Positions 15,683 through 17,862 of a stretch of 64,000 nucleotides of DNA are shown piece after piece (within the stretch, counting starts at the first letter, position 1; each line of letters starts with the position of its first letter). Location: NCBI GenBank assembly GCA_016841525.1, contig JAENYZ010000004.1, forward strand, positions 248,001 through 312,000, given 5' to 3'. A program made the position numbers and the translations under genes. The stretch comes from Anaerolineaceae bacterium. Its GTDB lineage: Bacteria > Chloroflexota > Anaerolineae > Anaerolineales > Anaerolineaceae. The notes under the pieces are model-generated. The model worked only from the letters and a program-made list of their open reading frames with translations, did not search any database and had not been told where the DNA came from.

Positions 15683-15749
15683 GGAATTAGGCAATTAGGC
15701 AATTAGGCAATTAGGAAATTAGTGATTGGGCAATTAGGTAATTAGGATT
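15683..15749. repeat. Tandem array of an 8-base unit (GGCAATTA)
   Basis: Three perfect GGCAATTA copies (15690-15713) are flanked by GGAATTA and GGAAATTA, then one more perfect copy (15729-15736) and GGTAATTA (15737-15744). A degenerate array of the same kind on the other strand occupies 15811-15845 and another lies at 12337-12367. Confidence 0.75.
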
Positions 15750-15861: not shown

Positions 15862-15889
15862 TTGACTCATCTCTCATTTATAATATAAT
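15862..15889 (+). promoter_or_regulatory. Sigma-70-type promoter for the cysteine leader and cysKE
   Basis: TTGACT (15862-15867) and TATAAT (15884-15889) are separated by 16 bases, a near-consensus pair. It predicts transcription from about 15896, some 30 bases before the leader-peptide ATG and 250 bases before cysK. Confidence 0.75.
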
Positions 15890-15925
15890 TATGATAGTTA
15901 TTATCTAATTCAATTGGAGAACTTT

Positions 15926-15964
15926 ATGCTTTACATTTGCTTGTGTCTGTGGCGGGGTCGATAG
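15926..15964 (+). CDS. Putative cysteine leader peptide (12 residues)
   Basis: The short frame reads MLYICLCLWRGR and then stops at TAG (15962-15964). It has a proper ribosome-binding site: GGAG at 15916-15919, 6 bases before the ATG. Two of twelve codons are Cys (TGC at 15938-15940 and TGT at 15944-15946), a high density for a rare amino acid, and the next gene makes cysteine. The stop codon falls inside the 5' side of a long hairpin. By analogy with trp/his-type leaders, ribosome stalling at the Cys codons when Cys-tRNA is scarce would change downstream folding. That the peptide is translated is inferred, not shown. Confidence 0.65.
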   Translation: MLYICLCLWRGR

Positions 15965-16043
15965 CCGCCGAACAGACGTCAACTCTTGAAAATTCAAGCC
16001 AGTCGATCTGGGCGGCGGACAGCCCCGCAATCTATTAATGCGG
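15952..16043 (+). promoter_or_regulatory. Leader RNA with mutually exclusive hairpins upstream of cysK
   Basis: A long helix is formed by GCGGGG (15952-15957) with CCCCGC (16023-16028), GCCGCC (15964-15969) with GGCGGC (16011-16016), CAGA (15973-15976) with TCTG (16007-16010), and an inner CTTGAA/TTCAAG hairpin (15985-15998). An alternative pairing, CCGCA (16025-16029) with TGCGG (16039-16043), cannot coexist with either the long helix or the terminator that follows. This is the layout of an antiterminator switch. Confidence 0.6.
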
Positions 16044-16065
16044 TGCGATGGTTTCGCTGCCTTTT
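16042..16065 (+). terminator. Attenuator terminator upstream of cysK
   Basis: GGTGCGA (16042-16048) pairs with TCGC and GCC (16054-16057 and 16059-16061, one bulged T) around a 5-base loop, and TTTT (16062-16065) follows. It lies between the leader peptide and cysK and shares bases 16042-16043 with the alternative antiterminator pairing. Confidence 0.55.
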
Positions 16066-16149
16066 ATGTTAACTCGACTGGCATTATGTTTTAAAACCCA
16101 TCCTCACCCAGTATCAGTAAAGATTTATGATGACCTGAATGGAGAAATA

Positions 16150-17079
16150 ATGAAGATTTATAACGATATTACAGAATTAATTGGGAACACACCGCTGGTT
16201 CGTCTTAACCGGATCAACCAGGGGGGCGCGGATGTCCTCTTAAAACTTGAGTATTTTAACCCTGCCCACAGCGTGAAAGACCGCATTGGTGTTGCGATGA
16301 TTGATGCAGCAGAGAAAGCCGGGAATTTAAAACCGGGCAGCATCATCGTTGAACCGACCAGCGGCAACACGGGCATAGCATTGGCATTTACAGCGGCCGC
16401 TCGCGGTTATGGCTGCGTGATCGTGATGCCTGAAAAAGTCAGCTATGAACGGAAGATGATGATGAAAGCCCTCGGGGCAGAATTGATCCTGACGCCCGGC
16501 GATGAAGGTATGGACGGCGCAATCGCCAGGGCTGAAGCATTGGTAAAATCTGACCCCCGCTATTTTATGCCCAATCAATTCACCAATCCCGCCAACCCTG
16601 AAATCCATCGCAAGACAACCGCCGAAGAAATCTGGCGTGACACCGACGGGAAGGTCGATATCCTCGTTGCCGGCATCGGTACGGGCGGAACGATTACAGG
16701 CACCGGCGAAGGGTTGAAAACACATAACCCCAAAATCCGGGTTGTTGCTGTTGAGCCGCAAGCAGCGCCTGTCCTTTCTGGCGGGGAAAAGGGTCCGCAC
16801 CCGATCATGGGAATTGGCGCAGGATTTATCCCTAAGGTTTTAAATACCAGCATTTACGATGAAATTATTACCGTCACCGGCGAAGATGCCTTTGACACCG
16901 CTCGCCAGCTGGCAGTACAGGAAGGACTGCCGGTTGGAATCTCCTCTGGGGCTGCTGCCTGGGCTGCCTTACAACTTTCAAAACGTCCTGAAAATAATGG
17001 GAAATTAATCGTGGTAATCATTCCCTCCTTTGCAGAACGCTATCTCAGCACGCCGCTCTTCGATGACTTGCGTGGTTAA
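16150..17079 (+). CDS. cysK: Cysteine synthase A (O-acetylserine sulfhydrylase)
   Basis: This PLP enzyme joins sulfide to O-acetylserine to give cysteine. The 309-residue product has [11 protein letters not shown] with the PLP lysine, the [10 protein letters not shown] substrate loop, and [14 protein letters not shown], which cradles the PLP phosphate; the C-terminal half contains the conserved PVGISSGAA motif. The start is ATG 16150 with GGAG 5 bases upstream, and the N-terminus [19 protein letters not shown] is typical. An in-frame ATG at 16048 lies inside the attenuator hairpin and is rejected. It is the first gene of cysKE, behind a long structured leader. Confidence 0.97.
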
Positions 17080-17100: not shown

Positions 17101-17862
17101 ATGGAACACACATCAAATCTTACTTTGACAAATAAAAGAAGTTACAAATCATCCAAAGAGATTGGATTATTCAAAATGATCCTTGAAGATATTCGCTGCG
17201 CGTTACATCGTGACCCGGCAGCACGCAACTGGTTCGAAGTACTGGTAAATTATGCTGGTTTGCATGCGATCTGGTTTTATCGCATCAGCCATTGGTTATG
17301 GAACAAAAAAATTCATTTGCTTGCACGCTCGTTATCCCAGTTTGCCCGATGGGTCACCGGTGTTGAAATTCATCCCGGGGCTAAAATCGGCAGACGGTTT
17401 TTCATCGATCACGGTATGGGCGTTGTGATCGGTGAGACCACAGAAATTGGTGATGATGTTACTTTTTACCATGGTGTCACCATGGGTGGTGTCAGCCTTG
17501 AAAAAGGCAAACGCCATCCGACCCTTGGGAACAAGGTGGTTGTTGGCGCTGGGGCAAAGGTGCTTGGCGCTATCGAAATCGGTGAAGGCAGCAGAATTGG
17601 TGCGAATGCCGTGGTGGTTAAATCAGTCCCGGCTGAATCCGTGGTTGTTGGCATTCCCGGTCAGATCGTCAAACGCAGTCACAAACGGGTCAGTGACGCA
17701 CCTGACCTGCACCATGACCTCTTACCAGACACGATCGGTTCAGCGCTACAGCAAGTGATGGCTCGACTTGATCGTCTGGAAGACCAGATGCACCTTCACG
17801 AAAATGGTCATATAAATATTGATGAAAATGGATATTGGGTTGGGTCTGATTTCAGTATTTAG
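17101..17862 (+). CDS. cysE: Serine O-acetyltransferase
   Basis: It acetylates serine with acetyl-CoA to make O-acetylserine, the substrate of the adjacent cysK. The protein has 253 residues: an N-terminal helical region ([17 protein letters not shown]), then a left-handed beta-helix of hexapeptide repeats with [28 protein letters not shown] and [18 protein letters not shown]. The C-terminal tail after the beta-helix is longer than in minimal forms and ends in Ile, as needed for binding CysK in the cysteine synthase complex. It starts 21 bases after cysK. The first ~25 residues are poorly conserved and a later start at 17176 is possible. Confidence 0.95.

Follow-up and report, generated by a model that had tools for sequence, protein, structure and literature searches.

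Ribosome-mediated transcription attenuators of the trp, his and leu type are known from enterobacteria. The leader described here, upstream of cysK-cysE in an Anaerolineaceae genome, resembles them in its short ORF with control codons, a hairpin over the ORF, a predicted antiterminator and intrinsic terminator, and downstream biosynthesis genes. It differs from them in that the amino acid is cysteine and the two codons are arranged as C-x-C, not as a run. The putative antiterminator has two segments, since the in-ORF strand immediately 3' of the control codons has a second partner in the terminator loop. The terminator helices are nested, inner and outer, and the lineage is Chloroflexota. A his attenuator is described in the accessible part of PMC9413887.

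The uORFC-8-2 motif found before cysS in Rhodobacterales is, like the window leader, a Cys-codon leader with a terminator, and ribosome-mediated attenuation is proposed for it in the available text of PMC8632094. It is set apart by that description, in which the Cys codons are in tandem, mostly as codons 14-15, and the downstream gene encodes cysteinyl-tRNA synthetase in alphaproteobacteria. This motif was not encountered in the window, where C-x-C before cysK was found instead. Cys leader peptides without conserved terminators are described for Mycobacterium and other Actinobacteria in excerpts of PMC1262725 and PMC4633059. Canestrari et al. 2020, as cited in PMC9094748, presents mycobacterial Cys uORFs as cysteine-responsive in its title. 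These poly-Cys uORFs are likewise Cys-rich leader ORFs before cys operons. They differ in that the Cys runs lie near the stop, the uORFs are leaderless and the excerpts report no conserved terminator hairpins. The window leader does not fall in this class, as C-x-C, a ribosome-binding site and a terminator-like hairpin are present. His leader peptides of Firmicutes share with the window leader the occurrence of attenuation outside Proteobacteria, and differ in amino acid (histidine), genes and phylum (available text of PMC9413887 and PMC2965389). According to the same portion of PMC2965389, a 2010 survey, leader-peptide attenuation had previously been found only in Proteobacteria and Actinobacteria, and the survey added Firmicutes. 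No report of leader-peptide attenuation in Chloroflexota was found in the open-licence literature searched, and an earlier description elsewhere is possible. The mechanism was judged to be of a known kind, with a distinct two-part antiterminator and a wide distribution, and the literature searched gave no description of it for this lineage.

The leader upstream of cysK-cysE

The window is the whole stretch of DNA that was analysed, 64,000 nucleotides in length, and all positions refer to it. The leader region spans 15862-16149, and its features are listed in Table 1. In all likelihood it is a ribosome-mediated, cysteine-responsive transcription attenuator.

Table 1. Positions of the leader features and of the two downstream genes in the window.
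Feature	Position	Strand	Evidence
Sigma-70-type promoter TTGACT-16-TATAAT	15862..15889	+	11/12 consensus positions
Ribosome-binding site GGAGAA of leader ORF	15916..15921	+	Sequence
Leader peptide ORF MLYICLCLWRGR, 12 codons, stop UAG at 15962-15964	15926..15964	+	Sequence; C-x-C ORF conserved among relatives
Control codons UGC-UUG-UGU (Cys-Leu-Cys), Cys codons at 15938 and 15944	15938..15946	+	UGY-N3-UGY conservation
Strand 1: GUCUG and GGCGG, pairing with strand 2 (hairpin 1:2)	15945..15958	+	Cognate vs non-cognate duplex tests; window folds
Part of strand 1, GCGGGGU, pairing with strand 3 (putative antiterminator)	15952-15958	+	Duplex tests; window folds
Strand 2: CCGCCG and CAGACG, partner strand 1 or terminator 5' arm and flank	15965..15978	+	Duplex tests; window folds
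Outer helix 5' arm GCCAGUCGA	15998..16006	+	Window folds; outer-helix duplex test z -6.8
T5, predicted terminator 5' arm GGGCGGCGGA	16010..16019	+	Window folds with ribosome at stop codon or Cys1; terminator arm test
Strand 3: GCCCCGC, partner 15952-15958	16022..16028	+	Window fold; compensatory forms in relatives
Apical hairpin CCGCA/UGCGG within predicted terminator (16025-16029/16039-16043)	16025..16043	+	Folds with ribosome at stop codon and at Cys2
T3, predicted terminator 3' arm, then U-tract UUUUAUGUU	16053..16070	+	Window folds; terminator-like score enrichment
Outer helix 3' arm UCGACUGGC	16074..16082	+	Window folds; relatives; outer-helix duplex test
cysK, cysteine synthase A	16150..17079	+	NCBIfam TIGR01139, 459.9 bits (cut-off 350.95)
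cysE, serine O-acetyltransferase, 21 nt 3' of cysK	17101..17862	+	NCBIfam TIGR01172, 251.8 bits (cut-off 210.65)

A sequence-only reading had placed a Cys-codon leader attenuator here, and the comparative tests below support it. The promoter that it claimed is present at 15862-15889. The 12-codon ORF with its own ribosome-binding site and two Cys codons was also found (15916-15964), and cysK and cysE lie downstream as it had stated, both above the cut-offs of their models. TTGACN-16-TATAAT is kept in 10/10 genus loci examined, the window's included, and ends 41-48 nt upstream of the first Cys codon; this count omits the eleventh genus locus, L011, whose sequence ends too near the leader. About 8 copies of AATTAGGC stand in tandem 5' of the promoter at 15685-15746, and some relatives carry other short repeats upstream.

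The segment 15890-16090 folds better than 200/200 dinucleotide shuffles (z -3.0). Its best ribosome-free fold consists of hairpin 1:2, the terminator and the outer helix and is the proposed OFF state. The long helix 15952-15957/16023-16028 (GCGGGG/CCCCGC) and the hairpin 16025-16029/16039-16043 (CCGCA/UGCGG) of the sequence-only reading can both form. A further hairpin, 15945-15955/15965-15977, was absent from it. Its terminator, drawn at 16042-16065, was right in the 3' arm and U-run, but the 5' arm is not the conserved one. The conserved stem is 16010-16019/16053-16062, followed by UUUUAUGUU, and the outer helix 15998-16006/16074-16082 can enclose it. The local hairpin 16042-16065 forms in some window folds. 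A simple consensus terminator scan gave no site at the leader; its 8-base loop limit shuts out the conserved stem.

The leader most likely turns the cysteine-making genes on only under cysteine shortage. When Cys-tRNA is plentiful the ribosome would reach the leader stop codon and mask strands 1 and 2, which would pair as hairpin 1:2 after it leaves. T5 would then be free for T3 and transcription would stop 5' of cysK. When Cys-tRNA is scarce the ribosome would stall on the Cys-x-Cys codons with its front edge reaching only about the start of GGCGGG, so that hairpin 1:2 would be hindered, strand 1 left free for strand 3 and strand 2 for T5. This two-part antiterminator (1:3 with 2:T5) would block the terminator and cysK-cysE would be transcribed. 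The model predicts that the leader ORF is translated, that ribosomes stall in it, and that termination in vivo responds to Cys limitation.

Conservation of the Cys codons and of the rival pairings

The cysK gene was searched for in 261 genomes of the order, all at least 90% complete, and 236 matched at 1e-40. The survey sample was 125 cysK orthologues that matched at E below about 1e-114 and were intact at the 5' end, a few genomes giving two. A short ORF that stops 1-8 residues after C-x-C was found in 82/125 upstream regions on the sense strand vs 3/125 on the antisense strand. The same survey with Leu, the next residue, instead of Cys gave 50 sense and 33 antisense regions of 125. When as many as 20 residues were allowed after C-x-C, the ORF was found in 99/125 regions, some of them by chance, leaving 26/125 loci without one. 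Several leaderless cysK loci lie, by eye, directly behind a thioredoxin-like coding sequence, and the leader may head thioredoxin-like/cysK operons.

Regions were also selected without regard to Cys codons, by GGCGGG together with a distal exact complement of GCGGGN. This selection took 59/125 cysK regions, and its antisense control gave no qualifying region. All 59 carried UGY-N3-UGY 7-20 nt 5' of GGCGGG, at exactly 13 nt in 58, against a background rate for that interval of 276/7708. In these 59 loci a start codon preceded any stop in 58 for the Cys frame and in 5 and 17 for the other frames. A GGA-type site preceded the in-frame start in 34 for the Cys frame and in 0 and 1 for the others. 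The leader stop falls at a median of 24 nt after the first Cys codon.

The RNA is large, structured and conserved, as would be expected of a T-box or of a riboswitch that binds a ligand, with the ORF being incidental, but the conservation of frame, start, stop and Cys codons with fixed geometry makes this extremely unlikely. The Rfam search of the window returned only three tRNAs at the gathering threshold, and the leader region gave only two matches, both sub-threshold (E 2.2 and 4.8), one of them with a plastid intron family and one with a snoRNA family. Identity with a T-box or a known riboswitch was rejected, no Rfam family being matched.

Strand 1 lies directly 3' of the Cys codons within the ORF, strand 2 just past the stop and strand 3 about 70-110 nt further on. 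Pairing within a leader was compared to pairing between leaders for 59 non-redundant leaders (<72% identity) with 2000 permutations. This permutation test stands in for an R-scape style count of pair changes and corrects only partly for shared ancestry. The 1:3 duplex averaged -20.75 kcal/mol for cognate vs -17.74 kcal/mol for non-cognate strands (z -9.3), the 1:2 duplex -14.72 vs -12.59 kcal/mol (z -8.1) and the 2:T5 duplex -15.48 vs -12.77 kcal/mol (z -7.8), with 0/2000 permutations as good in each case. Two control segment pairs in the same 59 leaders gave z +2.0 and +0.4. Nine leaders without GCGG-like sequence at +14 are probable chance ORFs (L195, L210, L221, L225, L231, L264, L278, L280 and L288), though L225 and L231 may be real. 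These nine were kept in the first duplex test and dropped from the terminator, folding and compensatory tests and from a second duplex test. In the remaining 50 leaders z was -9.0 for 1:3, -6.5 for 1:2 and -8.4 for 2:T5, with -15.8 for the terminator block, -6.8 for the outer helix and +1.2 for the control. The sequence-only reading had named conservation in relatives as a check, and both the Cys codons and the alternative pairings are conserved.

Matched changes were tallied in 90 leaders (the 99 less the nine), related leaders not being fully independent. GCGGAG stood opposite CUCCGC in 4/4 leaders, GCGGAA opposite UUCCGC in 1/1 and GCGGGA opposite UCCCGC in 2/4, and CCCCGC was present in 0/9 of the leaders with these three forms. 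Among GCGGGG leaders 59/77 had exact CCCCGC and 18/77 lacked the exact complement in strand 3. The exact strand 3 complement was missing for CCAGGG (3/3), GCGGGU (1/1) and GCGGGA (2/4). By eye L267 has an 11-bp match of AUGCGGAAUAG with CUAUUCCGCAU. In 12 close relatives no pair had changed on both sides, the 1:3 core was invariant and 1:2 was paired in 94.8% of cells. With so little variation in the core pairs, these counts carry no information on covariation.

The leaders L180, L188 and L190 are divergent and have a third Cys codon (CMCICLGQG). By eye, CCAGGGACGG lies opposite CCGUCUCCUGG with a bulge in L180 and L188, and strand 3 there seems to share bases directly with the terminator arm.

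An R-R-G end is common among the leader peptides, which would suit a nascent-peptide arrest in which C-x-C-x-R-R-G itself stalls the ribosome on cysteine or a sulfur metabolite and not on Cys-tRNA shortage. R-R-G is, however, encoded by the GGCGGGG strand needed for pairing, and where the strand changes the peptide changes with it (CLCPGRR, CTCHMRNS) and the pairing is kept. The residues between and after the Cys codons vary among leaders. Such an arrest is therefore very unlikely, and stalling through Cys-tRNA shortage is the preferred reading.

Terminator and ribosome-constrained folding

A hairpin arm with a U-rich tract at or below -14 kcal/mol was present in 43/50 leaders vs 43/500 shuffles. 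A laxer threshold of -8 kcal/mol separated them less (48/50 vs 282/500). Many relatives have, by eye, nested inner and outer terminator stems, each followed by U's. Taken together, the C-x-C survey, the Cys-blind selection, the duplex tests and the terminator scores make chance very unlikely.

This enrichment also bears on translational control, in which the structures would govern how accessible the cysK ribosome-binding site is, or whether ribosomes reinitiate once past the leader ORF. For mycobacterial Cys uORFs an effect on translation is among the options named in the excerpts of PMC1262725 and PMC4633059, where such Cys-rich uORFs precede cys genes and conserved terminator hairpins are not described. 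In the leaders studied here terminator-like hairpins with U-tracts are strongly enriched, and the pairing strands of the window end at 16082, 5' of the cysK ribosome-binding site at 16141. Translational control is on these grounds distinctly unlikely compared to transcription attenuation.

Folding under ribosome constraint was modelled for 46/50 leaders, those with a stop within 42 nt and a U-rich site. A ribosome footprint ends about 15-16 nt beyond the first base of the P-site codon. Three positions of the front edge were used: +12, which puts the first Cys codon in the A site (Cys1), +18, which does so for the second (Cys2), and 12 nt beyond the first base of the stop codon. With the terminator 3' arm still to be made, the expected antiterminator pairs were 19.1 at Cys1, 17.6 at Cys2, 3.9 at the stop and 17.6 with no ribosome (n=46), and exceeded the stop value in 43/46 leaders at Cys1 and 46/46 at Cys2. 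With the 3' arm present the terminator-arm pairs were 4.4, 5.1, 7.8 and 4.5, respectively (n=46).

The contrast is partly built in, as a mask that reaches the stop codon necessarily takes away some of the antiterminator. Shuffled downstream sequence gave 10.9 antiterminator pairs at Cys1, 9.8 at Cys2 and 4.4 at the stop. The Cys1-minus-stop difference was 15.2 for real and 6.5 for shuffled sequence, so that masking alone accounts for part of it and not for all. The leader's own shuffled mean was exceeded in 38/46 leaders and not in 8/46. Antiterminator pairs exceeded the no-ribosome value in just 23/46 leaders at Cys1 and 17/46 at Cys2. Ribosome-free transcripts that end before the inner terminator or just past it favour the antiterminator (17.6 and 15.4 expected pairs), the window likewise. 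An OFF state without translation would thus depend on hairpin 1:2 being kinetically favoured or on completion of the outer helix. With the outer helix included (15890-16090) the OFF fold wins without a ribosome.

In the window a ribosome at Cys1 gave 15952-15958/16022-16028 together with 15965-15970/16013-16018, strand 2 holding T5 bases in this putative antiterminator, and a ribosome at the stop codon gave the full terminator. A small local hairpin before the U-run persists in the Cys1 fold and could leak termination. From comparison and modelling, the long helix with 15965-15978 paired to T5 would be the antiterminator, formed under a stalled ribosome, and the 16025-16043 hairpin is predicted to be the tip of the terminator and not an antiterminator. 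The sequence-only reading had wired the same parts in the opposite sense, with 1:3 as the OFF helix and stalling, by covering it, freeing the 16025-16043 hairpin as antiterminator. Both pairings are possible in the window, and the Cys2 fold contains the hairpin. The terminator fold contains it too, though, so that it does not exclude the conserved terminator stem. What clashes with that stem is 1:3 with 2:T5, which is seen in the folds with a ribosome placed on the Cys codons. Comparison and ribosome-constrained folding thus swap the helix roles, and the earlier wiring is highly improbable.

The Cys-codon leader is real and conserved, and very probably a transcription attenuator. It has a short ORF with a start and a ribosome-binding site, which is predicted to be translated. 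Its control codons specify the end-product amino acid (59/59 Cys-blind loci) and the downstream genes, cysK-cysE, are in the pathway of that amino acid. Protector, antiterminator and terminator pairings are mutually exclusive in the duplex tests and folds. An intrinsic terminator is predicted before the first gene, though the U-tract of the window is imperfect.

Distribution and downstream genes

A blastn search of 147 genomes of the family gave 14 matches, the window's own included. Among 15 other genomes of the genus 10 matched and G016, G017, G023, G024 and G029 did not; in G024 a leader was found by a later model search. Of the matches in other genera those in G145 and G115 are real and the one in G011 falls elsewhere by eye. 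In 12/12 real relatives the leader stands before cysK and the peptide contains C[LM]CL[RWG]RG. One leader was found in the window's own genome, and its three other loose matches (L290-L292) held no leader by eye.

In the class, 44/396 genomes matched model R1 with E no higher than 0.01. The filters were strict and one helix of the model is off by one column, and the model was used for finding candidates only. A pattern scan of named genomes gave at least 80 loci, and among the matches listed 61 were from Chloroflexota and 19 from other phyla, judged by titles. Also among the matches listed, a sulfur gene of the reference set lay downstream in 54/59 testable Chloroflexota loci vs 0/19 others, and CCCCGC at 50-130 nt in 45/61 vs 1/19. 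L047, labelled Nitrospirae, was rejected as a chance match. An exact-pattern search of the phylum matched 39/400 genomes, 23/55 in the class and 16/345 outside it, and its reversed-pattern control matched 1 in the class and 8 outside; the 16 genomes outside the class were counted neither for nor against the leader. A viral collection gave no match to the leader pattern.

The gene 3' of 106 leader-like places was cysK in 40, cysM in 35, a rhodanese gene in 11, DUF4395 in 4, metY in 1, CBS in 1 and none of these in 14. The 106 include some genomes twice and chance matches, and one example per gene family was checked. The genes downstream of leaders are sulfur and Cys genes, matching the amino acid of the control codons. 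The CBS case and one cysK case come from a MAG labelled Chloroflexus sp., which, if correctly labelled, would not belong to the class. Two leaders occur in some genomes, such as G413 with cysM and rhodanese. The cultured relatives Longilinea arvoryzae and Ornatilinea apprima have leaders before cysK in their genomes.

The 11 leader-bearing rhodanese-domain genes include L046, L055, L060, L085, L111 and L114. The closest NCBIfam model to such a gene is 3-mercaptopyruvate sulfurtransferase, below the model cut-off. The rhodanese gene is predicted, from its leader, to be an unexpected member of a cysteine-starvation regulon. The leader also stands before the gene of a DUF4395 membrane protein (L025, L032, L052 and L110, with Pfam checked for L025), and this placement suggests a sulfur role for DUF4395.

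Six leaderless cysK loci (L205, L211, L213, L243, L259 and L273) have a similar gene upstream, which matched Pfam Rrf2 in the three tested (L205, L211 and L273). This suggests that a protein regulator replaces the attenuator at Rrf2-preceded cysK loci.

The balance tips modestly towards one ancestral attenuator family serving as the cysteine sensor across Anaerolineae and perhaps more Chloroflexota. This family would have spread to six or more kinds of sulfur-related genes, with a rigid 13-nt distance from codons to helix that fits the ribosome front edge, a strand-exchange antiterminator (1:3 with 2:T5) and an Rrf2-type gene before cysK in some lineages without the leader. A Cys attenuator with complete antiterminator and terminator anatomy, occurring in many genera, would define a sulfur regulon for a large group seen mainly through metagenomes and would annotate ORFs too short for gene finders. 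It would also provide natural matched-change data and a fixed geometry with which to test how ribosome position sets the choice of RNA structure.
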